IMG/VR virus record: IMGVR_UViG_3300009068_000190
Location: 1 to 23,950 of that record
Length of the DNA stretch: 23,950 nt
Direction: 5' to 3' (one strand)
From: a virus
The notes beneath the pieces are model-generated. The model was given only the letters and a program-made list of their open reading frames with translations. It had not been told where the DNA came from and made no database searches. Shown here piece after piece: positions 208-23,950 of this stretch. A program made the position numbers and the translations under genes. Positions within the stretch are counted from its first letter, which is position 1; every line of letters starts with the position of its first letter.

Positions 208-1065
208 TCAATCATTCTCCATCTCGGAGAAGTACTTTAGAGGATCCTTTTCCTCAATGTCTTCAGACACCACCGTGTCTGCCACATCATCCTCAATGCT
301 CTTGCTTTCAGTAAACTGAGCACGAACATCATCACCAACAGCCTTCTTGTATCGTTCAGTGAGTTCTGCGAAACTCTTGAACTGGCTCTTATCAACAAAT
401 GGCTTTAGAGGATACTGCTTCTTCCAAAGTTCCTCTAGCTTCTTGTCATCTCCACCAAGAAGAGGGGCAGGAGATGCAAACTCTGAACGATCATAATTTA
501 CGTAACCTCCGACATTACGAATCTTGATCTTAAAGTCTGCACCAGTCCAGAAGTTGAATGGATCAACTGCAACCTCATCCTGATACTCTGGATGAGCGAG
601 ACTCTGGATCTTCTGAAAGATCTTGGTGCCATACTGGTAAAGGAAAACCTTTCCCTTGTTCTCTGGATTAGCAGGGTCTTCGATTACAAGAATATTGGAA
701 ATATAAGCCAACTTACGCTTACGATTCCTTGCAATATTCTTGTCATCCTCAATACCACTATTCCAAAGTTCCGTATTGCCCTGACAAATTGGACATTTCT
801 CACCAATGGTAGTTGGGCAGTTTTCAAAAAGCCAACCACCCTTGCCCTTGAACGCATGGCTGTACATAGACACAAAGGGTGTATCTTCCCCCTGAATTTC
901 GGGCAGGAAGCGGATTACAGCATATCCGTTACCTGACTTATCAATACCAGGCTTCCAAAGACGTTCATCCTTGTAACTCTCCTTGGAGGTGAGCTTATCC
1001 ATACGCTCGGTTAGAGATGCGACTGAGTTCTTACTCTTTTTCTTAAAATCTGCAAAGTTTGACAT
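208..1065 (-). CDS. 32: gp32-like single-stranded DNA-binding protein
   Basis: This is the T4 gp32 family, which coats single-stranded DNA cooperatively in replication, recombination and repair. The 285 residues follow the T4 plan. A basic N-terminal arm (FKKKSKNS, compare the KRKST arm of T4) serves cooperativity. A core begins GYAVIRFLPE. The zinc site is H70, C83, C91 and C94 (T4 uses H-x12-C-x9-C-x2-C, here H-x12-C-x7-C-x2-C). ISNILVIEDPANPENKGKVF matches a T4 core block very closely. The C-terminal tail is acidic (about residues 255-285), as needed for binding replication partners. The gene lies downstream of gp33, as in T4, but no gene 59 lies between them. A consensus sigma70 promoter and a leader hairpin precede it. 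Its codon use is more G+C-rich than the virion genes to the right. Confidence 0.96.
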   Translation of the reverse strand: MSNFADFKKKSKNSVASLTERMDKLTSKESYKDERLWKPGIDKSGNGYAVIRFLPEIQGEDTPFVSMYSHAFKGKGGWLFENCPTTIGEKCPICQGNTELWNSGIEDDKNIARNRKRKLAYISNILVIEDPANPENKGKVFLYQYGTKIFQKIQSLAHPEYQDEVAVDPFNFWTGADFKIKIRNVGGYVNYDRSEFASPAPLLGGDDKKLEELWKKQYPLKPFVDKSQFKSFAELTERYKKAVGDDVRAQFTESKSIEDDVADTVVSEDIEEKDPLKYFSEMEND

Positions 1066-1105: not shown

Positions 1106-1133
1106 ATTATAGCCCAATTAGGTGGTTAGTCAA
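1106..1133 (-). promoter_or_regulatory. Sigma70-type promoter for gp32
   Basis: Leftward TTGACT (1133-1128), a 16-bp spacer and TATAAT (1111-1106) match the bacterial housekeeping consensus closely. The -35 box overlaps the gp33 stop codon, so gp32 can be transcribed apart from gp33. The predicted start near 1099 gives a leader of about 34 nt that carries the hairpin at 1076-1092. Confidence 0.8.
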
Positions 1134-1359
1134 TTGGTAGTTTCTTGGTTTTGCCATTTTTTAGTAAATGGCGGTCTCTGGCTTCAATTTGAATTTTTTC
1201 AATTATTGGTCTGGTAATGAGTTTACCAGCCGTACTTGGATCAATATTCATTTCTTCAGATAATTCAATTATACAATCCATAAAACTAAGTTTTGTAGAT
1301 TTTACTCTATCTAAAACTTTATTTGAAAATTTTTCTTTTGCTGCTTCGTCTATATACAT
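1126..1359 (-). CDS. 33: gp33-like late-promoter transcription co-activator
   Basis: This 77-residue protein resembles T4 gp33, the RNA-polymerase-bound adaptor that links the late sigma factor gp55 to the sliding clamp gp45 so that late promoters fire. The shared block is residues 52-66, IIEKIQ-x-EA-x-D-x-x-LL, which T4 gp33 has as IIEKIQSEAIDENLL. It is preceded by a helical acidic stretch (IIELSEEMNID). Position supports the call, because T4 gene 33 also lies just upstream of 32. It is shorter than T4 gp33 (about 112 residues), mainly at the N-terminus. The gp55 partner is not in the window. Its promoter leaves only 6 nt between the -10 box and ATG, so a leaderless mRNA is expected. Confidence 0.82.
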   Translation of the reverse strand: MYIDEAAKEKFSNKVLDRVKSTKLSFMDCIIELSEEMNIDPSTAGKLITRPIIEKIQIEARDRHLLKNGKTKKLPID

Positions 1360-9678: not shown

Positions 9679-10041
9679 TTAACTTAACGTTAGAAGATAC
9701 TTGGTTTGTTGTACCACTCCAAGCATCTCGTCTCGTATATTTAACAGTTCTGTCTGAGACTCATCTATTTCTTTTGGAAGTTCATTCATCAAATAATCTT
9801 CAAAAGAATTCAATACTTGATTTGCAGTGGTGCGATACGGACCATTGAGTTGAAGCTCGCTGATTTGTTTCAGTTCTTCCTTGCCCAGAGCACCCATATA
9901 GGTCTCGGCAAAGGTATCTAAAAGACCATCAATGGCTTCATATGCCTTTCCTAGTGCTTTGTGTGCGGCATAGGATTTAGTACCCCAGTGATGAAGTCTA
10001 ATTTCGTTTTCAAAATTTAAAATAGTTTTAATGCAAGACAT
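9679..10041 (-). CDS. Dps / ferritin-like four-helix protein
   Basis: This 120-residue helical protein has the pattern of the first half of Dps/ferritin proteins: H17-H18-W-x-T-x-x-Y-x-x-H27, then Y-E-A-I-D-x-L-L-D42-x-x-x-E46. In Dps these positions carry the di-iron ferroxidase ligands (H, H, D, E). Phages carry small uncharacterised proteins of this type. The remaining helices (about 52-120) are less distinctive. Possible roles are iron or peroxide handling, or a structural four-helix bundle. It is too short for a full Dps (about 160 residues), so a 12-subunit cage is not assured. Its ATG shares one base with the upstream stop codon, implying coupled translation. Confidence 0.62.
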   Translation of the reverse strand: MSCIKTILNFENEIRLHHWGTKSYAAHKALGKAYEAIDGLLDTFAETYMGALGKEELKQISELQLNGPYRTTANQVLNSFEDYLMNELPKEIDESQTELLNIRDEMLGVVQQTKYLLTLS

Positions 10042-10256
10042 TAATATTTCCTGTGTTTGTGTTCTTGTGAAAAAGTTATAAAATCTTCTGGTACATCTTC
10101 TGGATTTCGTTCAGCTCTTTTCTGTGCCTTACGATATTCAGGGTCGGTTAGAAGGAGAGGGGTCACCTCTCCTGTAGAATCTAAATGAGCCACAAAATAA
10201 TAACTGGCACATTCATTTGGTTTTTTCTTTTTATTTTGAATTTTACCTCGTGCCAT
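10041..10256 (-). CDS. Small basic phage protein, unidentified
   Basis: From the ATG at 10256 the product is 71 residues, beginning MARGKIQNKKKKPNE and containing many Lys, Arg and Glu residues. A short core (YYFVAHLDSTGEVTPLLLT) looks beta-hairpin-like, and the tail is helical and basic. The function is not recognised. An upstream in-frame TTG (10280) would overlap the previous gene and is unlikely. The ATG choice is supported by an ACTAAATA late-type box that ends exactly 5 nt before it, but there is no ribosome site, so a leaderless mRNA is predicted. It is coupled to the Dps-like gene by a TAATG overlap. Confidence 0.62.
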   Translation of the reverse strand: MARGKIQNKKKKPNECASYYFVAHLDSTGEVTPLLLTDPEYRKAQKRAERNPEDVPEDFITFSQEHKHRKY

Positions 10257-10261
10257 AAAAA

Positions 10262-10269
10262 TATTTAGT
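10262..10269 (-). promoter_or_regulatory. Late-type box with leaderless spacing
   Basis: Leftward ACTAAATA is followed by five T residues and the ATG at 10256. If it works like the T4 late box (about -13 to -6), the transcript begins at the A of AUG. Confidence 0.5.
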
Positions 10270-15629: not shown

Positions 15630-17096
15630 TTATGGCCTAAAGAAACTTGGTCCAGATTGAAGCGTTTGCATTATTTGTCGTTGTTTTTGAATTCTATCTA
15701 AATTTGGTGTAGAAGTTTTTGCACCCATTGCTTGTCTTTCCAACTTCGCTCTATCTTGTTGAGATACTGTAACTGCACCCAATGATGCAGCATCAACAGC
15801 GGATGTTGGAGAAGTAATTGAATCTACTGGAGCCAAACCTTGTTGTTTTCTTTGTTCTTCTTGTTCTTTTGCCCAGTCTTCTTTGGCTTTTATTTCATAT
15901 TCAGTCGGTGCAACTATATCGGACCCTTTACCGGCTTCTGAAGTGAATGCACCTATTGCTAATGGAGCCATTGCCAATCCTCCTGCAACTTCAGCAGCAC
16001 CTGCTGCAATAGGAACAATTCCTTCGGCCCCCAATGACAATGGATCTAACATGTTTAGACCTTTGCCAGCAGCACGTATTGCACCTCTTGCAAGTTGAGC
16101 AGTTCTTCTTCCAACTTCTTTACCAGTCATTGCTAAATCATTTACACCCTGTCCGGCTGCGGCAATATCTTCTGGAGTTATTGCTCCGATTGATCTTAAA
16201 TACTTATGAGGTTCATTTGCTTTGGGCGCCAACAAATCAATTGATTCCTGTTCCATTGGTTCGCCAATACTTTGAAAATAATCAGCTATTTTTGCTCTTC
16301 CTCCGGGTTGGAAAGATGTAACGCGTCCTGTTGGTGTATCACCTCTTCTTAAAAGGCCGTGTTGTGGATCTATTTCGCCTTCTTTCATAGCAGCAGCCAT
16401 TCTCAATATTGTTTGTTTTTGTTTTTCTACTCTTAGGAGTCTTTCTGCTTCTTTAGTTTGATTTGCAGCAGTTTCCTCTGCTGCTTTTTTTGCCGCTTCT
16501 GCAGCTTCTGCAGCAGCTGTTTGTTGAACTATATTTTCTAGTCTGTTTGTATTTCTTCTATCATTTATTGCGCGCGCTAACCAACCTCTGCCAGCAAATT
16601 CTGGTTTCTTTTTAAATATTCCTTGTATTGGTTCACCAGTAAGTTGATCAACTGCTTGAGATGCAAATATACTAGTCATTTTTCCTGCATTTTTTGGATT
16701 TATAGACCATCGTGGAGTTAAAAGACCATATATTCCCGCCCCCAATCCAAGTTTTTTTACTATGTCAGAGTATGGACTATTTTTTATATTAGCAACTCCA
16801 CGGTAAACTCCATTTACAAGATCATCATGTGTTTGAGCAATACGACCTAAAATTGGTCTTTCTTCAATATCTTTTCTAGCTTCTTCAGTTTTTTTAATTT
16901 CTACATCTGCAGCTGCTTTGGCGGCTGCTTGTGCTTGTGCATCTGCTTTTGCATTTGAAGCAGCCTCATTTTTTACACCCTGACTCATTCTTATTGGAGG
17001 AGCAACGACCATAGCCTCTAACAATCCTTCAAGACGATTGACTTCTTCTTGTAAAACTTTGGCACGATTCTGGTATAATTTAGTGATATGGTCCAT
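15630..17096 (-). CDS. Putative internal head protein, 488 residues
   Basis: The N-terminus MDHITKLYQNRAKVLQEEVN, continuing to L25-L26-E27-A, matches the coil module shared by four genes at 17125-20778, although read from the opposite strand. After it come an Ala/Lys-rich helical region (about 40-80 and 190-225) and a basic segment with ANIKNSPYSDIVKKLGLGAGIYG (about 100-130). A Gly/Ala-rich hydrophobic stretch lies at about 350-385 (VPIAAGAAEVAGGLAMAPLAIGAF) and could insert into a membrane. The composition recalls injected or internal virion proteins that pass through the tail. A CATAAATA late box ends 5 nt before the ATG. No enzyme motif is seen. Confidence 0.6.
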   Translation of the reverse strand: MDHITKLYQNRAKVLQEEVNRLEGLLEAMVVAPPIRMSQGVKNEAASNAKADAQAQAAAKAAADVEIKKTEEARKDIEERPILGRIAQTHDDLVNGVYRGVANIKNSPYSDIVKKLGLGAGIYGLLTPRWSINPKNAGKMTSIFASQAVDQLTGEPIQGIFKKKPEFAGRGWLARAINDRRNTNRLENIVQQTAAAEAAEAAKKAAEETAANQTKEAERLLRVEKQKQTILRMAAAMKEGEIDPQHGLLRRGDTPTGRVTSFQPGGRAKIADYFQSIGEPMEQESIDLLAPKANEPHKYLRSIGAITPEDIAAAGQGVNDLAMTGKEVGRRTAQLARGAIRAAGKGLNMLDPLSLGAEGIVPIAAGAAEVAGGLAMAPLAIGAFTSEAGKGSDIVAPTEYEIKAKEDWAKEQEEQRKQQGLAPVDSITSPTSAVDAASLGAVTVSQQDRAKLERQAMGAKTSTPNLDRIQKQRQIMQTLQSGPSFFRP

Positions 17097-17101
17097 AAAG
17101 A

Positions 17102-17109
17102 TATTTATG
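17102..17109 (-). promoter_or_regulatory. Late-type box of the leftward internal-protein gene
   Basis: Leftward CATAAATA is followed by TCTTT and the ATG at 17096, the exact 5-nt spacing that predicts a leaderless transcript. It is nearly back-to-back with the rightward box at 17112. Confidence 0.65.
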
Positions 17110-17111
17110 TA

Positions 17112-17119
17112 TATAAATA
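17112..17119 (+). promoter_or_regulatory. Late promoter of the rightward internal-protein gene
   Basis: A perfect TATAAATA is followed by ATTTT and the ATG at 17125. The 17 bases from 17111 through the ATG are identical to those at 20061-20077, before another member of the same family. Confidence 0.75.
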
Positions 17120-17124
17120 ATTTT

Positions 17125-18864
17125 ATGAATTATCTAACTAACCACTATAAAAATTTGTGCGAACAATATCAAAGCAAAATTAATATTCTTCAAAATTTAT
17201 TAAATGAAGATGCTCCTGCATCAACCTTTAGTGGTACTGGCCAAGGCCAGCAAACTTTTAGTGATGAACAACTTCGTGATCAAATGAAACAAAATAAGAG
17301 ATCAAATGCATTTGGTCCAGCAATTCCAGATGATAAGCAAAATCAAGCATATAGAGATGCTCAAGCAGAACTAGCCAGAAGACAAGGTGCAAGTGCTAAG
17401 GTAGAGTTAGATCCATCTATCAAACAATCATCAGATTATAAAACTGATCGCGTTGCTGGTGACTGGGTTGAAAGATATGCCCAGAAACTTGGAGAAGATC
17501 CTCGTAAAATTGAAGCAATGCGCCGTGGAGTGATTGACACATTGGGTGGTGATGCCGGAAAACCAATGGACACATCCATGACATCAAATCAAGTTGCTCA
17601 AAGAGGAGTTGATGCTTATAATAAAGCCAAAGAATATGTTGTAGGCTTGCAAAATCAAGCAAAGGCAGCTAAACCAGAATCTGCACCTTCATCTGCTCCT
17701 GCAAGAGTTTCTACTCCATCTGCTGCACCAGCTACCGCACCAAAAACCACACCTGCTCCAAAAGAAGAAAGAGGTTTAGGAATGGATGGAGAATACGGCC
17801 AGTTCCCAATCTATCCAGAAGGTCAAGAAGATTCAGCCTATAGTAAACCTGCTGCACAGGCTCCCGTTCAAACTGGAGCAACAGAGAGTGCAAAACAACT
17901 TGCAAATCTCTATACTGCTAGAATGACTGGTGGAGATGTATTTGGTAGAAAATATTCTAAACAGCCAGAAGCAGCAAAAGCCGAAGAAGTTAAAATTCCT
18001 GAAATGGGATTAACTCAAAAAAGTCCAACAAAATATGTTGTTCCAGAATCTGAAGAATGGGAGAAAATGTCTCCACAAGAACAACTTGCAATGGCACAGT
18101 CGGCCCTTAAAAATGATGAAGCAAATAAATTCTTTGGAGGCCGTGAAGGAAAGAAAGGTGGCTTCTTGGGTATTGGTGGTGAAAGAACTTATAGATTCAG
18201 TGAAGACAATTCTGGTCAAACTCCAGAAGAAACTGCAAGACTCAATCGTCAAGCAAAAATGTTAAACAATTTATTGAATACACAGGATGCAGGTGCAATG
18301 TCACAACAACTTAGTGACATATTATTTAAATATAATAATAACGGAAATAGTTCCTCATCTAAATCATCAGAAACCATATCCACTGGTGGAATGAACCAAC
18401 CAATGGATCTTGCAGATTTTCCTGATAATGAAGATACAGATAAACAATCCTCTTCAGCAGAATTAGAAAATGCAAGAAAACTTGCTCAGATGTATGCAAA
18501 TAGAATGGGTAGAAGAGTTTCTAAAGCACCTGCAACCCCACCAGCACCAGTAGCATCTAAGGAAAAAGTTTCATCTTTTGATTCTGCCTTTAAAGCATAT
18601 CAAGATCGCAATGCAAGAACAGCATCAATGCCTCTTGCAATGGCAGGAGAACAATCTTCCAAGGGATCAAGTATGGAAGGTCAGGCATTGGAAAATGATT
18701 CAGCGGCAAGAGCACGATATGCTCAAAGCGTAAAAACAAATGCATCACAAAAAGCTGCACAAGAAGAGTTTGTAAGAAGATTCGGAAGACTTCCAAATTC
18801 CAAATCAGCCGTAGACAACACATACATGGAAACATTGTTGTCCACCAAATTTAAAACTAGATAA
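17125..18864 (+). CDS. Putative internal head protein, 579 residues, with internal repeat
   Basis: The first 28 residues, MNYLTNHYKNLCEQYQSKIN, continuing to L26-N27-E28, are the shared coil module and end in an L-x-E site like those cut by T4 prohead protease. The remainder is low-complexity, rich in Ala, Gln, Ser, Lys and Pro, with a Pro/Ala/Ser linker at about 190-225. An internal duplication is visible: ESAKQLANLYTARMTGGDVFGRKYSK (about 253-278) and ENARKLAQMYANRMGRRVSK (about 450-469). The C-terminus is basic. This fits a scaffold or injected internal protein rather than an enzyme. The ATG is chosen because of the late box 5 nt upstream. A longer in-frame extension to 17038 would run through the opposing gene and promoters. 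Confidence 0.62.
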   Translation: MNYLTNHYKNLCEQYQSKINILQNLLNEDAPASTFSGTGQGQQTFSDEQLRDQMKQNKRSNAFGPAIPDDKQNQAYRDAQAELARRQGASAKVELDPSIKQSSDYKTDRVAGDWVERYAQKLGEDPRKIEAMRRGVIDTLGGDAGKPMDTSMTSNQVAQRGVDAYNKAKEYVVGLQNQAKAAKPESAPSSAPARVSTPSAAPATAPKTTPAPKEERGLGMDGEYGQFPIYPEGQEDSAYSKPAAQAPVQTGATESAKQLANLYTARMTGGDVFGRKYSKQPEAAKAEEVKIPEMGLTQKSPTKYVVPESEEWEKMSPQEQLAMAQSALKNDEANKFFGGREGKKGGFLGIGGERTYRFSEDNSGQTPEETARLNRQAKMLNNLLNTQDAGAMSQQLSDILFKYNNNGNSSSSKSSETISTGGMNQPMDLADFPDNEDTDKQSSSAELENARKLAQMYANRMGRRVSKAPATPPAPVASKEKVSSFDSAFKAYQDRNARTASMPLAMAGEQSSKGSSMEGQALENDSAARARYAQSVKTNASQKAAQEEFVRRFGRLPNSKSAVDNTYMETLLSTKFKTR

Positions 18865-19152: not shown

Positions 19153-19160
19153 GATAAATA
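19153..19160 (+). promoter_or_regulatory. Late-type box with leaderless spacing
   Basis: GATAAATA is followed by TTCTT and the ATG at 19166, giving 5 nt between box and start and no ribosome site. Confidence 0.6.
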
Positions 19161-19165
19161 TTCTT

Positions 19166-19681
19166 ATGCTATCTTTCATCGAATTTCTCACAGAAGCCAA
19201 AGCCAAGCCTTCAGACCCCCATATCTCAGAGGTACAGGGATCTTCGTGGTATCATCCAGAGACTGGAAAGGTATTGGCATTTGATGAAGATGATTTCAGT
19301 CATCAAACTTACTTCATAAAAAATCATAAAAAATTTGGAATTGATCCCAAAATTTTAAAGGCAAATTTGCAAGATGTCAAAGATACTGTTGGTACCATCG
19401 AAGGACATCCACTCAAATTTCTTTTTGATGCTGGATGGGTTAGAAGTTATGCTGACGGCAAGGACGTAAACTTTGAAGGAAACACTCGTCAGGTTCACGA
19501 AACCGTTCGTCGTCATGCAAACAGAATTCCAGATGCAACATATCGAATCGACATCGCTGATCCAAGAAGTGTACATGCAACCGCAAAAAGCGTATCACAC
19601 GAACTCATGGAACCTGAGCATGTAGACAGGTTTATTTCATCAAAAGGCAGACCTCACAGAGATTATACAACAATACTATGA
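19166..19681 (+). CDS. Putative packaged phage protein with capsid-targeting-like start
   Basis: The product has 171 residues. MLSFIEFLTE-AKAK at the start parallels T4 MKTYQEFIAE-A, with L8-T9-E10 as the likely cleavage site at the same position. The mature part includes SSWYHPETGKVLAFDEDDFSHQTYF, KKFGIDPKIL and a basic histidine-rich segment (VHETVRRHANRIPD). This resembles a class of small conserved proteins I have seen in marine T4-like phages (W-x-H-x-x-T/S-GK-x-x-x-W/F followed by F-GI), function unknown. It overlaps the next gene by ATGA, so the two are translationally coupled. The ATG is selected because the late box ends 5 nt upstream and the N-terminal pattern starts there. Confidence 0.65.
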   Translation: MLSFIEFLTEAKAKPSDPHISEVQGSSWYHPETGKVLAFDEDDFSHQTYFIKNHKKFGIDPKILKANLQDVKDTVGTIEGHPLKFLFDAGWVRSYADGKDVNFEGNTRQVHETVRRHANRIPDATYRIDIADPRSVHATAKSVSHELMEPEHVDRFISSKGRPHRDYTTIL

Positions 19682-20055
19682 CATACCTAATAAACTATTA
19701 CAAAAATCGTTGTGAAACACTTCAAGAACAAGTAAACAATCTTCAAAAATTATTAAATGAAATTGATACTAGTCATAATAAACGTGATCCAGGAGATCCT
19801 TATGATATGAGAAATTATGATAAAATATCAGATAAAGAAGAAGAAAAAATAAAAGAAAAATTAAATGATATGTATTCTATGCTTCTTGATGATGAAGATG
19901 GACCTGATCCAAATACTAAAGAAGGCATCAAAGCAGCATATGAAACTGCAAAATTAAAAGATTCTGCACAATCAGAAATTAATTTATATGGTCAACCAAC
20001 TGGCAGAATAATTACAAAAGCTAGTATGGGTACAATGGATACCAATAAATTTTAA
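19678..20055 (+). CDS. Coil-module family protein, 125 residues
   Basis: Residues 1-28, MTYLINYYKNRCETLQEQVN, continuing to L26-N27-E28, are the shared module with an L-x-E end. The rest is acidic and helical (DKEEEKIKEKLNDMYSMLLDDEDG), then contains GIKAAYETAKLKDSAQSE and a short Gly/Thr-rich C-terminus. The acidic, Asp/Glu-rich composition suits a scaffold-core or DNA-associated internal peptide. No enzymatic motif is visible. It has no own promoter box and begins inside the stop of the previous gene (ATGA), so it depends on coupled translation. I recognise no named family. Confidence 0.6.
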   Translation: MTYLINYYKNRCETLQEQVNNLQKLLNEIDTSHNKRDPGDPYDMRNYDKISDKEEEKIKEKLNDMYSMLLDDEDGPDPNTKEGIKAAYETAKLKDSAQSEINLYGQPTGRIITKASMGTMDTNKF

Positions 20056-20061
20056 TAATTA

Positions 20062-20069
20062 TATAAATA
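20062..20069 (+). promoter_or_regulatory. Late promoter with leaderless spacing (20075 gene)
   Basis: A perfect TATAAATA is followed by ATTTT and the ATG at 20075. Seventeen bases are identical to 17111-17127. Confidence 0.75.
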
Positions 20070-20074
20070 ATTTT

Positions 20075-20479
20075 ATGGACTACCTAACAAAATATTACAA
20101 GAATCTTTGCGAAAGTCTTCAAGAGAAAGTAACTTTACTTGAAGAAAGAATAAAAAAGAAACCACAGCATCTTCCTTTTGAAATTTTAGATATAGATGCA
20201 CCATTTGAATTTGGTAAAACACATTTCGATCCAAGCGATATAAAAATTTCTGGAAGACATGTTAGACCAGATGGAAGCAGAGGACCGGAAGTTATCATAC
20301 CAATACATGCCTTTGCTGATATACATTATCATGATGTTGCAGATCATGTCGAAGATTTTATGAAAGGAAGAAAATCTCCAGACAATCCTCTTTTCAAGGC
20401 TTTTAATGATCAAGGTGGCGATAGTCCCAGCACATTACGAGTCGATTCCAGCAAAGTTAAACCAATTAAACGAAATTAA
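20075..20479 (+). CDS. Coil-module family protein, 134 residues
   Basis: Residues 1-20, MDYLTKYYKNLCESLQEKVT, are the shared module, but the usual L-x-E end is replaced by LLEERIKKKP, so processing may differ or be absent. The body has a beta-rich central part (FEFGKTHFDPSDIKISGRHVRPDG) and a His-rich stretch (IHAFADIHYHDVADHVEDF) that could bind metal. It ends in a Ser/Lys-rich tail. It is one of four rightward members between 17125 and 20778, and has its own perfect late box with 5-nt spacing and no ribosome site. Function unknown. Confidence 0.6.
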   Translation: MDYLTKYYKNLCESLQEKVTLLEERIKKKPQHLPFEILDIDAPFEFGKTHFDPSDIKISGRHVRPDGSRGPEVIIPIHAFADIHYHDVADHVEDFMKGRKSPDNPLFKAFNDQGGDSPSTLRVDSSKVKPIKRN

Positions 20480-20502: not shown

Positions 20503-20778
20503 ATGAATTACCTAACAAACTATTACAAAAACCTTTGTGAAAATCTTCAACAGAAAATTAATTATCTTGAAAAAATTATAAGTGAAGGTCAAGAAATGAA
20601 ATTTGAAGAAGAAGAAGAACAAGGTAAGGTATTGCCTTCTTCTGAGGAAGATAATAATGAAGATGAGACAAAAAATTCTGATCCCAGAGCAATGAAACTT
20701 GGAAAAGGTGCAGTAATAGGCCCCAGTAAAGTAAAAGGTCTGGGAGAGACAAAAAAATCTGAAAATAGTTCTTACTAA
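20503..20778 (+). CDS. Coil-module family protein, 91 residues
   Basis: Residues 1-20, MNYLTNYYKNLCENLQQKIN, continuing to I26-S27-E28-G, are the clearest copy of the shared module, with an I-x-E-G cleavage-like end. The remaining 60 residues are very acidic (EEEEEQGKVLPSSEEDNNEDET) and then Gly/Lys-rich (GKGAVIGPSKVKGLGETKK). It is the last gene of the rightward group and is followed by a strong terminator. Acidic peptides of this kind are typical of T4 core or internal proteins. No family recognised. Confidence 0.6.
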   Translation: MNYLTNYYKNLCENLQQKINYLEKIISEGQEMKFEEEEEQGKVLPSSEEDNNEDETKNSDPRAMKLGKGAVIGPSKVKGLGETKKSENSSY

Positions 20779-20806
20779 AATAACTTAAAAATTTTATCAT
20801 AAACTT

Positions 20807-20838
20807 TTGGGCTCCTTTCAGGGGCCCAAATTTTTTTT
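20807..20838 (+). terminator. Strong rho-independent terminator closing the A+T-rich part
   Basis: TTGGGCTCC pairs with GGGGCCCAA (9 bp, one G-U) around a TTTCA loop, followed by A and eight T residues. Confidence 0.92.
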
Positions 20839-21029
20839 ATGGCATCCCATGTATTTTGAAAAAGGGGGTCGTTTTATAAATGGACTTTTGAGAGGCTTAG
20901 GGGGCCAAAAAGTTTTTTTGAGAATATTAGAGAAAATTATAAGGGGTCGGTGGGGCTAGCCCGTCCGATAACCCCCCGGCGTATGGGACCCAAATCAGTA
21001 CTCGGACGCATCCCCCCCCTAATAACAAA
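20839..21029. other. Non-coding junction between A+T-rich and G+C-rich DNA
   Basis: About 190 bases without a supported gene. The first half is A+T-rich with isolated G runs (AGGGGGTCG, AGGGGGCC, AGGGGTCGG) and a terminator-like stretch ending in seven T residues near 20915. From about 20940 the composition switches to G+C-rich. A 7-bp inverted repeat, CGTCCGA / TCGGACG, encloses a C/G-rich loop, and GGGCTAGCCC is a small palindrome. No attachment-site duplication was recognised. Confidence 0.6.
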
Positions 21030-21056
21030 GATGCCCGGCGCTTCGCGCCGGGCATC
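21030..21056 (-). terminator. Terminator of the leftward zinc-ribbon gene
   Basis: A perfect 12-bp stem (GATGCCCGGCGC / GCGCCGGGCATC) has a TTC loop. Read leftward it is followed by TTTGTTATT. It lies 15 bp after the stop codon at 21072. Confidence 0.9.
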
Positions 21057-21071
21057 TGAGGGGCTGAGAGG

Positions 21072-21281
21072 TTAGCCCTCCCAGTATGGGTCGTCGTCGC
21101 CTTCGTAGCCCATGGCGCGCTCATGCGCGTCCCATGCCATGTCTGCGCGCACATCGTCCACGCACATGACGCACAGCGTACCATACTCGGTAGCGCGAAC
21201 GTTATCGTCCACGTGATCAGCGCCGCAGACGCAGCAGCAGGGGCGAGAGGTTTCAGCCGTGTTGTTCTGAGTGGTGCTCAT
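21072..21281 (-). CDS. Small zinc-ribbon-like protein
   Basis: From the ATG at 21281 the product is 69 residues. After a Thr/Asn-rich start it has CCCVCG and, 15-20 residues later, LCVMC, a pair of C-x-x-C knuckles typical of a small zinc ribbon or treble clef. The C-terminal third is acidic and aromatic (DMAWDAHERAMGYEGDDDPYW). A role as a DNA-, RNA- or protein-binding early protein that alters the host is plausible but unproven. The start is fixed by a promoter whose -10 ends 6 nt before it. There is no Shine-Dalgarno. A perfect terminator follows. Confidence 0.68.
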   Translation of the reverse strand: MSTTQNNTAETSRPCCCVCGADHVDDNVRATEYGTLCVMCVDDVRADMAWDAHERAMGYEGDDDPYWEG

Positions 21282-21287
21282 GCGAAT

Positions 21288-21320
21288 ATTGTAACACACA
21301 CAGGCGAGTGTGTGTTTAAA
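21288..21320 (-). promoter_or_regulatory. Repeated leaderless promoter cassette (copy 1)
   Basis: Leftward TACAAT (21293-21288) is preceded by a CACACTC block beginning 19 bp before it, and followed by ATTCGC then ATG: 6 nt. Further upstream, GATTTAAACACACACTC is shared with copy 2. Confidence 0.75.
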
Positions 21321-21347
21321 TCCCCACAATATTTCTTCTAATAACAT

Positions 21348-21416
21348 CGCCGGCCCTCTCCCGCCCCATCATTCGACCCGTGTAACGGGTAGGGGGCATT
21401 GGGTTCGGGGCCGGCG
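21348..21416. ncRNA. Conjectural structured element between two leftward genes
   Basis: Outer arms CGCCGGCCC (21348-21356) and GGGCCGGCG (21408-21416) are perfectly complementary over 9 bp and enclose an inner hairpin, ACCCGT / ACGGGT (21376-21390) with a GTA loop. C-rich and G-rich stretches flanking it may also pair. It lies downstream of the 21458-21742 gene in its reading direction, so it may be that gene's terminator, an RNA-stability element, or an independent RNA. No tRNA-like arms are present. Confidence 0.5.
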
Positions 21417-21457
21417 TGTTTGACTGGGCATTGCAGGTCACGGGCTTCCCATAGGGG

Positions 21458-21742
21458 TTACATTTCCCCCCATCCTGCGCTGGCCAGCCAGTCGTTATCG
21501 GCGTCCCAGTCCTCGCGGCTCATTCGGCTAGCCGCATCGCTGAACGCATCGTTATTGGCCTTGCGCTCCGCGTCATCCTGCGCCTCGTACTGACGGTTGA
21601 ACGCGGCCACCTGCTCCTCGCGCTCCATCTCGCGCTTCGCGTCCTCGCACATCGGGCAGAGGCTGTCCGTGTAGGCGTGTTCGGGGCGGTGGCAGTCGCA
21701 GGGGAAGTGTTCGTGTTCGTGGTTGGTAGTGGGGGTGCTCAT
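21458..21742 (-). CDS. Small acidic protein with Cys/His zinc motif
   Basis: The 94-residue product starts MSTPTTNHEHEHFPCDCHRPEH and then has LCPMCED, so C-D-C-H and C-P-M-C could bind one zinc. The rest is a charged helix (AKREMEREEQVAAFNRQYEAQDDAERKA) with an acidic, Trp-containing tail. It resembles the first zinc-ribbon gene in having a zinc knuckle followed by an acidic aromatic end, but the sequences are not clearly homologous. The start is set by promoter copy 2, with 6 nt between -10 and ATG and no ribosome site. It is divergent from the gene at 21857. Confidence 0.68.
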   Translation of the reverse strand: MSTPTTNHEHEHFPCDCHRPEHAYTDSLCPMCEDAKREMEREEQVAAFNRQYEAQDDAERKANNDAFSDAASRMSREDWDADNDWLASAGWGEM

Positions 21743-21748
21743 GTAAGT

Positions 21749-21780
21749 ATTGTATCACACTTGGGGGGAGTGTGTGTTTA
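21749..21780 (-). promoter_or_regulatory. Repeated leaderless promoter cassette (copy 2)
   Basis: Leftward TACAAT (21754-21749) with CACACTCCCCCC upstream, then ACTTAC and ATG: 6 nt. Upstream TATTTAAACACACACTC matches copy 1. Confidence 0.78.
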
Positions 21781-21820
21781 AATACCTCCAAACTTTCCAC
21801 CGAAATATTTGCTGCCAATT

Positions 21821-21850
21821 CTACACACACTCCCTATCATGTGATACAAT
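21821..21850 (+). promoter_or_regulatory. Repeated leaderless promoter cassette (copy 3)
   Basis: CTACACACACTCCCTATC, then TACAAT (21845-21850), GTACGC and ATG at 21857. It is divergent from copy 2, with about 65 bp between them. Confidence 0.78.
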
Positions 21851-21856
21851 GTACGC

Positions 21857-22207
21857 ATGAGCACCACCTCCACCCGTAACCTCATCGTCCTCCCCCTCCC
21901 CGCCCGTACCCTCCACCTGGATCGCGCTGCGTTCCTCTACACCGCGCTTGACTCCGGGTGGGTGCGTGTCCAGTACCTGAAGAATGACGGTACGCGCACC
22001 AGCCGAGTCTGCACCCGTAACCCCACGCTCGTGGGCAAGTACGGTACGGAGTCTGATATCCGCTCCATCCGCGAATCCGAGTCCGCCGATCTCGCAAACT
22101 ACAACATCGTCTACTTCGACTACATGAGCGGCGGACTGCGTTCCTTCCGCGTGTCGCAGGTGGAAGTCTGCGGAATCGACGCGGACTGCGTGGAGAATAA
22201 CCACTAA
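21857..22207 (+). CDS. SH3-barrel (WYL_2-like) phage protein
   Basis: This 116-residue protein is mostly one beta barrel: VRVQYLKNDGTRTSRVCTRNP, then YNIVYFDYMSGGLRSFRVSQVEV. Basic strand, N-D-G turn, a strand ending in T-x-N-P and a final G-x-RSFRV strand pair fit the WYL_2-like SH3-barrel family of phages. The same domain is seen in the gene at 14397-15068. A role in binding nucleic acid or protein is possible but not established. A start extension is not needed, as the ATG lies 6 nt after the -10 hexamer of promoter copy 3. There is no ribosome site. Confidence 0.7.
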   Translation: MSTTSTRNLIVLPLPARTLHLDRAAFLYTALDSGWVRVQYLKNDGTRTSRVCTRNPTLVGKYGTESDIRSIRESESADLANYNIVYFDYMSGGLRSFRVSQVEVCGIDADCVENNH

Positions 22208-22224
22208 ACTTTCGGGAATACTTT

Positions 22225-22253
22225 CCCACACACTCCCCCCTATCGGGTATACT
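22225..22253 (+). promoter_or_regulatory. Repeated leaderless promoter cassette (copy 4)
   Basis: CACACTCCCCCCTATCGGG is followed by TATACT (22248-22253), ACACCC and ATG at 22260. TTTCGGGAATACTTTCCC lies immediately upstream (22210-22227). Confidence 0.8.
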
Positions 22254-22259
22254 ACACCC

Positions 22260-22394
22260 ATGAGCACCATCGAACCCATCCTCGCCTTCACAATCTTCAT
22301 CCTCTTCTTCGGCACCGTCATCGTCGTCTGCGCTCTCCCCGCCATTCAGATGGCCATCGAAGTTTACGAAGCCCACAAGGATACCACCAAGTGA
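22260..22394 (+). CDS. Tiny membrane protein, 44 residues
   Basis: The ATG at 22260 opens a 44-codon frame to TGA at 22392-22394. The product (MSTIEPILAFTIFILFFGTV, then IVVCALPAIQMAIEVYEAHK) has one long hydrophobic helix (about residues 6-28) and a charged C-terminus. It is probably a single-span membrane protein. The next gene begins with GTG inside this stop codon, so the two are coupled. Paired small membrane proteins in early phage regions are often lysis, immunity or host-modifying factors, but the sequence does not tell which. Promoter copy 4 and 6-nt spacing fix the start. Confidence 0.68.
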   Translation: MSTIEPILAFTIFILFFGTVIVVCALPAIQMAIEVYEAHKDTTK

Positions 22395-22582
22395 ACACCA
22401 TCATCCGCATCCTCTGCATCGTCCTTCCCCTCAACGCGATCCTTGCCATCTACGGGGCAGTACGGGTTGCCATGGACGGCGACTACATCGGAGCAGTCAT
22501 CGCCGCGCTCGCTTGCCCTCTGTCCATCTTCCTCTGGACATTCTTCCGGTGGATGGATCGGGAGTACCGAGCCACGAACTAA
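22391..22582 (+). CDS. Small two-span membrane protein, 63 residues
   Basis: This gene begins at a GTG that overlaps the preceding stop (GTGA), so it depends on coupling. Residues 3-25 (TIIRILCIVLPLNAILAIYGA) and 34-55 (IGAVIAALACPLSIFLWTFF) are two hydrophobic helices separated by a short charged turn (MDGDY). The C-terminus is basic and charged (RWMDREYRATN). Two helices and small size fit a holin-like or immunity-like phage membrane protein. This is suggestion only. It is followed by a hairpin and a structured non-coding stretch. Confidence 0.68.
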   Translation: MNTIIRILCIVLPLNAILAIYGAVRVAMDGDYIGAVIAALACPLSIFLWTFFRWMDREYRATN

Positions 22583-22621
22583 CGAGGTGGTGCTCGTTTC
22601 AACCGAAGAGGATTCGTCCCT

Positions 22622-22650
22622 GCCCCGATTCGTTCGGGGCTAGGTTGTTT
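22622..22650 (+). terminator. Terminator after the membrane-protein pair
   Basis: GCCCCGA (22622-22628) and TCGGGGC (22634-22640) make a 7-bp stem with a TTCGT loop, followed by TAGGTTGTTT. Confidence 0.7.
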
Positions 22651-22657
22651 GGGGGCA

Positions 22658-22715
22658 GCTACTATCACAAATGCGCGCATTTGTGAGGATTGGATGGTCT
22701 GCGCCTGATAGTAGC
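22658..22715. ncRNA. Conjectural structured RNA with nested perfect inverted repeats
   Basis: Outer arms GCTACTATCA (22658-22667) and TGATAGTAGC (22706-22715) pair perfectly. Inside lies the 20-base perfect palindrome CACAAATGCGCGCATTTGTG (22666-22685), which shares two bases with the outer arm, and a G/T-rich single-stranded segment. It sits between a terminator and promoter copy 5, outside any gene. Possible roles are a small RNA, a transcript-stability element or a protein-binding site. It is not tRNA-like. Confidence 0.5.
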
Positions 22716-22770
22716 CGGCCCTGGATGCGTTATAGGACGCGAAAGAATTTATAATTTCCGGGCACCTATT

Positions 22771-22800
22771 CCCCACACACTCCCCCCTATAGGGTACAAT
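22771..22800 (+). promoter_or_regulatory. Repeated leaderless promoter cassette (copy 5)
   Basis: CACACTCCCCCCTATAGGG is followed by TACAAT (22795-22800), ACTTCC and ATG at 22807. The cassette is near identical to copy 4 over its spacer. An AT-rich ATAATTTCCG lies upstream. Confidence 0.8.
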
Positions 22801-22806
22801 ACTTCC

Positions 22807-23373
22807 ATGAGCACCACCCGCACCAACCGTTACGAATCCGTCCGCACCAACGCCATCGAAGCCTTCATCGGCCACCTCGCATCGGCTACCCTCTTCGACT
22901 ACGCCGCCGCGCAGAAGTGGTACGCCGAGGCCGGAGACTTCGCGGAATCGCTCCGCGTCCTGCGCCCGGAGTGGAGCATGGAAGTGTCCGCGTCCGTTGT
23001 CTCCGCGTTCTCGCCCCGCGTCACTTGGCAGCACAACAAGGCGAAGGCCACCCAGTACGCGCAGGGCATCACGCCGAAGGGTCTGCGCTCCCACGTGGAC
23101 GCTGCCGACCGATGCGTCCGGCAGGGCTTCAACGGCCTTCGCGGCCCCAAGACGAACGCGTTTGCCCGTGCCATCGCCGGGGATCGGGACGCGGTGGTGG
23201 TGGATGTGTGGATGTGCCGCGCTGCCGGACTGGGCAAGGATGCGCCCAACGCGACCGAGTACCGGGCCATTGCGGACGCGATCCGCACACTCGCCGGAAC
23301 GGGCGCCGTCTGCATGGCACCCGCCACGCTGCAGGCTCTGTTGTGGATCATCGTTCGGGGGAAGGCGGAATAA
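22807..23373 (+). CDS. Phage protein with VDVW motif, helix-hairpin-helix-like
   Basis: The 188-residue product is mostly helical. Notable blocks are ASVVSAFSPRVTWQHNKAKA, GLRGPKTNAFARAIAGDRDAVVVDVWMCRAAG, and a final helix (ATLQALLWIIVRG). I associate this order (S-x-V-x-A-x-SPR, K-x-x-AF, D-x-x-V-VD-x-W-x-x-RAA) with a family of uncharacterised phage proteins (possibly DUF7178) that may be related to helix-hairpin-helix DNA glycosylases. A DNA-binding or repair role is tentative. The start is set by promoter copy 5 with 6-nt spacing. A longer in-frame extension upstream would run through the promoter and the structured element. Its stop codon lies in the loop of a 6-bp hairpin (GGCGGA / TCCGCC). 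Confidence 0.62.
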   Translation: MSTTRTNRYESVRTNAIEAFIGHLASATLFDYAAAQKWYAEAGDFAESLRVLRPEWSMEVSASVVSAFSPRVTWQHNKAKATQYAQGITPKGLRSHVDAADRCVRQGFNGLRGPKTNAFARAIAGDRDAVVVDVWMCRAAGLGKDAPNATEYRAIADAIRTLAGTGAVCMAPATLQALLWIIVRGKAE

Positions 23374-23387
23374 TCCGCCCGACCCCC

Positions 23388-23416
23388 TTGACTTTCACCC
23401 CTCACCGAGGTACAAT
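23388..23416 (+). promoter_or_regulatory. Consensus sigma70 promoter, leaderless (copy 6)
   Basis: TTGACT (23388-23393), a 17-bp spacer and TACAAT (23411-23416) are followed by ACCGCC and ATG at 23423. It lacks the CACACTC block but keeps the 6-nt spacing, and its real -35 shows how the other copies differ. Confidence 0.82.
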
Positions 23417-23422
23417 ACCGCC

Positions 23423-23611
23423 ATGACCACTACCAACACCAAAACGGCCAAGCGTGTCGAAACTCTCTTGGCACACACTAAACGCATGTGGGGCCTCTCT
23501 AACGAGATCCGCCAGATGCACGCCGAGATCGACAGACTGGACAATAAACTTTCGGAAATAATTTCCGAAACCGAACTGCTGCTCTTCAAGATGCAGGAGG
23601 AAGAAGAATGA
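23423..23611 (+). CDS. Small coiled-coil protein, 62 residues
   Basis: The product is almost entirely one charged coiled coil: RVETLLAHTKRMWGLSNEIR, then EIDRLDNKLSEIISETELLL, ending EEEE. It probably forms a dimeric or trimeric rod and may act together with the next two genes, which it overlaps in series (ATGA at 23608). The start follows promoter copy 6 by 6 nt. No named family is recognised. A 21-nt perfect palindrome lies inside the gene (23550-23570). Confidence 0.65.
   Translation: MTTTNTKTAKRVETLLAHTKRMWGLSNEIRQMHAEIDRLDNKLSEIISETELLLFKMQEEEE
23550..23570. repeat. Perfect palindrome inside the coiled-coil gene
   Basis: Arms TTTCGGAAAT and ATTTCCGAAA flank a single central A. TTTCGGGAATACTTTCCC upstream of promoter copy 4 and ATAATTTCCG upstream of copy 5 are related. 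It may be an operator-like site, or a chance product of an A/T-flanked coding motif. Confidence 0.4.
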
Positions 23612-23832
23612 ACACCGAAACCGAAATCCAACGCCTCCGCATTGAGCGAGACGAGCGCGAGTACCTGAACGAAACGATCAGGAACCTCAACAATCAACTC
23701 GTTGATGCGTTGCGTGAGCGCGACGAAGCGAGGCGATTGGTCTGCAGGTACACAAAGAAAACCTATCGAACTCTCCGAGAAATGGCCGAAGAGCGCGGAT
23801 GGGACTGCTACGCAAAGGAAACCAAGCAATGA
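23608..23832 (+). CDS. Small charged coiled-coil-type protein, 74 residues
   Basis: The product begins with a long charged helix (EIQRLRIERDEREYLNETIRNLNNQLVDALRERDEARRL) and ends in a basic, aromatic region (CRYTKKTYRTLREMAEERGWDCYAKE). Heptad-like Leu/Ile spacing suggests a coiled coil, perhaps partnering the preceding gene. Its ATG overlaps the upstream stop (ATGA), and its own stop overlaps the next start in the same way, so the three genes are a tightly coupled unit from one promoter. I recognise no family and see no catalytic motif. Confidence 0.65.
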   Translation: MNTETEIQRLRIERDEREYLNETIRNLNNQLVDALRERDEARRLVCRYTKKTYRTLREMAEERGWDCYAKETKQ

Positions 23833-23950
23833 ACCACCGCCCAGCCAAGTTCGTCCATGACGCCTTCCGGGAGGGAATCCGGCTTCGCTCCAAGACCTGG
23901 GGCAAGAAGAGCCGAGACCCCCGGAAGGCGCGGAGGGAGGGGAAAAGGGA
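23829..23950 (+). CDS. Basic protein, partial (runs off the right edge)
   Basis: The ATG at 23829 overlaps the previous stop (ATGA). About 40 codons are visible before the window ends. The peptide (MNHRPAKFVHDAFREGIRLR, then SKTWGKKSRDPRKARREG) is strongly basic, which suggests nucleic-acid binding, but no family is recognised. The coupling chain and lack of a nearby promoter place it in the operon starting at 23423. Confidence 0.55.
   Translation, partial: MNHRPAKFVHDAFREGIRLRSKTWGKKSRDPRKARREGKR

Follow-up and report, generated by a model that had tools for sequence, protein, structure and literature searches.

T4 and its known relatives use mRNAs with a ribosome-binding leader, T4 being the standard example among phages, and the question raised by the locus described here is whether a phage of the same superfamily starts many of its mRNAs at the start codon itself. 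The window, by which we mean the whole 23,950-base stretch analyzed (the linear virus record IMGVR_UViG_3300009068_000190), is probably a fragment of a phage genome and, because it encodes gp32 (and also gp33), can be assigned on sequence grounds to the T4 superfamily (Pantevenvirales). Its A+T-rich part is mostly 26–42% GC; from ~20.95 kb on, the GC content jumps to ~58–62%, and a run of small genes starts there. These genes are presumably early, judging from their host-type sigma70 promoters and their clustering. The first-pass annotation had listed six starts in this block at which exactly 6 nt separate a -10 hexamer (TACAAT five times, TATACT once) from the ATG and at which a Shine-Dalgarno (SD) sequence is absent. 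Coordinates and hexamers proved exact, and none of the six starts has an SD (Table 1); we refer below to promoters placed in this way as fused to the start codon.

Between positions 20950 and 23950, each of the five TACAAT hexamers and the single TATACT has an ATG 6 nt downstream; the only TATAAT there (22750) does not. In 2000 simulated blocks (first-order Markov), the mean number of such sites was 0.0175 and the maximum 1, compared with 6 observed. The loose pattern TANNNT-N6-ATG, whose scan had been suggested along with the six starts, is not enriched over the whole window (28 sites vs. 23 expected); the signal comes from the particular hexamer within the G+C-rich block. Fused placement is also found outside the block, at gp33 (TATAAT-N6-ATG). 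The proposed ATGA/GTGA coupling of second genes is borne out at 23608 (ATGA) and 22391 (GTGA), each of which overlaps its predecessor; both genes can be reached by coupling and 23608 also by a canonical SD, its AGGAGG contrasting with the SD-free promoter-proximal genes.

Table 1. Genes and promoter elements in the window (except at gp33, spans include the promoter element where one is given)
Feature	Positions	Strand	Elements
gp32 single-stranded DNA-binding protein	208-1065	-	Pfam gp32, E 5e-48; without fused promoter
gp33 late-transcription coactivator	1126-1359	-	PF16805; TATAAT 1366-1371, 6 nt, ATG
Gene 10041-10256	10041-10267	-	TAAATA 10262-10267, 5 nt, ATG 10256; listed ORF uses upstream TTG
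Gene 15630-17096	15630-17107	-	Divergent late promoter, TAAATA 17102-17107, 5 nt, ATG 17096
Gene 17125-18864, N-terminal tag	17112-18864	+	Late promoter TATAAATA 17112-17119, 5 nt, ATG 17125
Gene 19166-19681	19155-19681	+	TAAATA 19155-19160, 5 nt, ATG 19166
Gene 20075-20479	20062-20479	+	TATAAATA 20062-20069, 5 nt, ATG 20075
Gene 21072-21281	21072-21293	-	TACAAT 21288-21293, 6 nt, ATG (A at 21281)
Gene 21458-21742	21458-21754	-	TACAAT 21749-21754, 6 nt, ATG (A at 21742)
Gene 21857-22207 (phrog_1086)	21845-22207	+	TACAAT 21845-21850, 6 nt
Gene 22260-22394	22248-22394	+	TATACT 22248-22253, 6 nt
Second gene of 22260 operon	22391-22582	+	GTGA overlap; without own promoter
Gene 22807-23373 (DUF7178)	22795-23373	+	TACAAT 22795-22800, 6 nt
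Gene 23423-23611	23388-23611	+	TTGACT 23388-23393, 17 nt, TACAAT 23411-23416, 6 nt
Second gene of 23423 operon	23608-23832	+	ATGA overlap and AGGAGG Shine-Dalgarno

A canonical -35 element is present in only one of the six block promoters (23423; 17-nt spacer). In the other five (21281, 21742, 21857, 22260, and 22807), the -35 region contains CACACACTC at the place where the relatives described below mostly have TTGACA. The exact CACACACTC motif recurs only in two of these relatives, G017 and its close relative G018; the -35 region therefore varies, while the register relative to the ATG stays constant. In two cases CACACACTC lies inside an inverted repeat (CACACT-N7-AGTGTG at 21742 and CACACAC...GTGTGTG at 21281), and it may serve as the operator of a phage-encoded regulator.

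Through the DUF7178 gene we reached 19 related viral contigs (up to 137 kb). Across them, the distance between TAYANT-type -10 hexamers and an ORF-opening ATG has one dominant peak, with 147 cases at 6 nt vs. 1–18 elsewhere (these counts include some of the window's sites through overlapping copies). The first-pass annotation had staked its claim of systematic leaderless expression on finding this spacing enriched elsewhere; the enrichment is strong, and leaderless expression is thus strongly indicated, as far as sequence can indicate it. TACAAT-N6-ATG occurs 0–14 times per related contig (0–2 in the reversed control). When hexamers were scanned by distance, unsupervised, at the non-redundant starts of the G+C-rich regions, TACAAT came out at 6 nt and TTGACA at 29 nt, and the usual early arrangement in the relatives is TTGACA-N17-TACAAT-N6-ATG. 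The first start lies exactly 6 nt away in 97 of 162 strong sigma70 sites in the G+C-rich blocks, several of the remaining sites having been scored at 0–2 nt only because of a chance GTG within the 6 nt. Of the sigma70 promoters in these blocks with no ORF at 6 nt, several stand in front of tRNA-like sequence. In one contig only (G011), six strong TTGACA-N17-TANNNT promoters (82437+, 83316+, 86514+, 89329+, 93490+, and 82862-) are followed by a common CTACTTGGTNGAC-type start and open short cassettes with no evident ORF at the 6-nt position; these cassettes may encode small RNAs.

In the A+T-rich regions, the same hexamer scan picked out TAAATA, 5 nt before the start (94 vs. 5.2 background). 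The motif TATAAATA, the T4 late promoter box, which has also served as a search motif (PMC9004378), occurs as TATAAATA-N5-ATG 44 times vs. 2 in the reversed control. There are 133 late sites ([A/C]TAAATA) in the clade with the first start at 5 nt, 6–16 per related contig; outside the clade, we counted 2 in T4 (100 kb), 1 in S-CAM1, 0 in S-SKS1 (50-kb part), and 2 in HTVC008M (50-kb part). The window has five, compared with 0.76 expected. The T4 box covers positions -13 to -6; it lies one helical turn ahead of the start and has its first two bases at -13/-12 (PMC2988020), so a 5-nt gap after the box would put +1 on the A of the ATG. As with the T4 late promoters served by gp55, gp33, and gp45, the box stands without a -35 element, and gp55 and gp45 are encoded in the relatives and gp33 in the window; we thus predict T4-type late transcription from the TATAAATA promoters. 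In T4 and the cyanophages the box is mostly at least 13 nt upstream of the ATG, unlike the large subset placed at 5 nt here. Fused placement hence reaches beyond the early genes, and the first-pass annotation, which had confined the pattern to them, under-called it. We also considered whether all late genes are leaderless and rejected the idea: other late promoters of the clade lie ~16–31 nt upstream of the start, including those of gp23 and gp22, and most late promoters in the neighborhood of gp23 come with a leader and an SD. Between positions 17094 and 17127 of the window, two divergent fused late promoters (17096- and 17125+) lie a few base pairs apart, an arrangement also present in G003 and G017.

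An N-terminal tag, M[DN]YLTNYYKNL[CS]EQLQxKxNxLE, is common to otherwise different late proteins and is often followed by LLNE-like sites. Its carriers in the window are 17125-18864+, 19678-20055+, 20075-20479+, and 20503-20778+, with a variant in 15630-17096-, and many copies occur in the relatives. Many of the tagged late genes have a fused late promoter. In sequence, the tag resembles a capsid-targeting sequence of the kind cut by the gp21 head protease, and many of the predicted leaderless late genes would encode tagged, perhaps internal head, proteins.

The bases around the starts can be compared between promoter classes. Half (50%) of the late starts with a leader have a strict SD, compared with 0.7% of the fused late and 8.6% of the fused early ones (background, 6%), the scarcity at fused starts being partly mechanical because the promoter occupies the SD position; for the same reason, SD-led initiation is unavailable at these starts. 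Transcription prefers to initiate on a purine that follows a pyrimidine. A pyrimidine occupies position -1 at 93% of starts in both fused classes vs. 60% of leadered starts, as a transcription start on the A of the ATG would predict.

On the whole, we put the probability at roughly 85% that the fusion of promoter and start codon makes transcription begin on the A of the AUG and yields leaderless mRNAs: the -10 elements are placed for +1 on the start codon, and an SD is lacking. Host RNA polymerase would read the TTGACA-N17-TANNNT-N6-ATG promoters of the G+C-rich, presumably early, block (the window mostly has CACACACTC instead of TTGACA), giving early mRNAs that would begin at the A of the AUG. 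The late sigma factor gp55, together with gp33 and gp45, would later read the TATAAATA-N5-ATG promoters of some late genes. The host ribosome would bind the 5'-terminal AUG directly, as for actinobacterial leaderless genes, and downstream operon genes, gp23, and gp22 would be served by overlapping start codons or SD leaders. The actual +1, the early timing, and the route taken by the ribosome are what we infer here; leaders of 1–2 nt are also compatible with the motifs, since the start nucleotide can vary by 1–2 nt.

Two other readings accept the promoters and place the 5' end or the start codon elsewhere. If the true starts lay downstream, the fused ATG would fall within a normal 5' leader, and it is true that our start codons are called from sequence, without proteomics. 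However, gp4 aligns with its homologue in the cyanophage S-CAM1 from residue 1 in 13/13 contigs, and in the five of them inspected at this position TAAATA precedes its ATG by 5 nt, so that conserved genes truly start at the fused ATG; many contigs have the late N-terminal tag starting at the fused ATG; and the early genes of the window share a common start, ATGAGCACC, at the fused ATG. We consider a general downstream shift of the starts improbable. Slightly less improbable, though still unlikely, is a leader supplied by a second upstream promoter or by operon read-through, with the adjacent -10 element playing a minor role. Some late genes of the clade do have SD leaders, and the near-absence of canonical -35 elements in the window's own promoters would fit such a scheme; yet complete TTGACA-N17-TACAAT-N6-ATG promoters have been retained in the relatives, the exact register would be left without a reason, and, as the fused starts lack an SD, lengthening the transcript would not remove the need for SD-free initiation.

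The remaining two readings question the pattern itself, and we regard both as refuted for practical purposes. The abrupt change in GC content from about 35% to 60% and the lack of DNA matches to the block in named phages might suggest foreign DNA misassembled onto a T4-like contig, the two promoter classes then coming from different phages, but the two-part composition recurs in almost every related locus of sufficient length, and BLAST matches span the junction in the independent contigs G002 (window 20783-22207) and G013 (20799-21298). Chance or base composition would account for the background level of the loose TANNNT-N6-ATG pattern over the whole window, but not for six specific hexamers in the block against 0.02 expected in simulation, nor for the clade-wide enrichment.

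The leaderless reading raises the question of the host. For the DUF7178 early protein, 73 of 74 matching records are from phages of Mycobacterium, Gordonia, and Rhodococcus, and a DUF3846-type early protein has 17/17 (weak) matches in Mycobacterium phages. In Actinobacteria, 19% of genes are leaderless on average, with TANNNT ~12 bp upstream of the start (PMC3160421). An actinobacterium is probably the host, this being the simplest reading. Profile scans of a bacterial genome collection with DUF7178 and gp23 returned no relatives and no host link. Mycobacteriophage Kimona carries a DUF7178 relative but has too few promoters of this kind for a comparison; phage C48C1, considered as a carrier after one protein match, has no fused spacing in the 40 kb covered. 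Published Nanopelagicales isolates belong to a different phage group with its own sigma70 factor and WhiB (PMC10202952), and no WhiB-family member was found among the 45 early proteins scanned.

The phage lineage is known from metagenomes only. In addition to the gp32 and gp33 of the window, the relatives encode gp23, gp20, gp17, gp43, gp45, and gp55, as well as gp44, gp62, gp46, gp47, uvsX, uvsW, uvsY, and regA. Their core genes are about 24–58% identical to those of S-CAM1, and the nearest named gp23, from S-SKS1, is 55.5% identical; no DNA relatives of the G+C-rich block were found among named phages. Core genes with roughly 24–58% identity and a cobS-like ATPase and peptidase pair are shared with Kyanoviridae cyanophages and the pelagiphage HTVC008M, which differ in lacking the two-composition genome, the fused promoters, and the actinophage-like early genes. 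Kyanoviridae are marked by a cyanobacterial host and photosynthesis genes, and the latter are not seen alongside this kinship: psbA, petE, and hli were not found in the related contigs, several of which are incomplete.

Leaderless genes as such are already known. Those of Actinobacteria and Deinococcus-Thermus, in which TANNNT adjoins the ORF (PMC3160421, PMC12340547), resemble the present case in having a -10 element ~12 bp upstream of the start, no SD, and SD-led genes in the same genome; the present case differs in that it concerns a T4-superfamily phage, in the use of a specific hexamer and a full -35 element at one exact spacing, and in the addition of a gp55-type promoter class in the same register. 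Leaderless initiation was first found in lambda (PMC3160421), where the cI mRNA likewise is a phage message without a leader; cI is a single gene, unlike the dozens of genes and two promoter classes here. A literature search, which was not exhaustive, found no report of leaderless T4-like late promoters. What appears to be new is that a T4-type phage would use leaderless genes systematically, at promoters of the gp55 type as well.

Tentatively, and with considerable doubt, one may see here two translation channels, a leaderless one for host-takeover and some late genes and one with SD leaders for the bulk of the structural genes, both promoter types having been shifted onto the starts in adaptation to a leaderless-permissive host, with the 5' end setting protein dose. 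More generally, a T4-superfamily lineage in which the promoters of two initiation factors are both locked to the start codon would show how a conserved phage program is remodeled to suit a host tolerant of leaderless mRNA. The fused pattern offers a genomic host clue for uncultured phages and a caller of start codons and promoters for the clade, and fused vs. leadered late promoters form natural sets for testing what a leader is for.

The two compositions extend to codon usage. In the relatives' genomes (G011, G016, G005, and others) and in window positions 20950-23950, the bulk is ~35% GC and the early block 55–62% GC. Codons per 1000 in bulk vs. early block are 61 vs. 7 for AAA, 28 vs. 3 for ATA, and 22 vs. 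4 for AGA, and the phage tRNAs read codons that the bulk uses often and the early block seldom, as though early genes relied on the tRNAs of the host and late genes on those of the phage. The phages also have a tmRNA gene in permuted (two-piece) form, in L029 (1335-1613-) and L042 (5555-5832+), with Rfam RF04321 scores of 81.8 and 75.7 bits, respectively; in L033 (11851-12226-), a permuted tmRNA was called by ARAGORN only.
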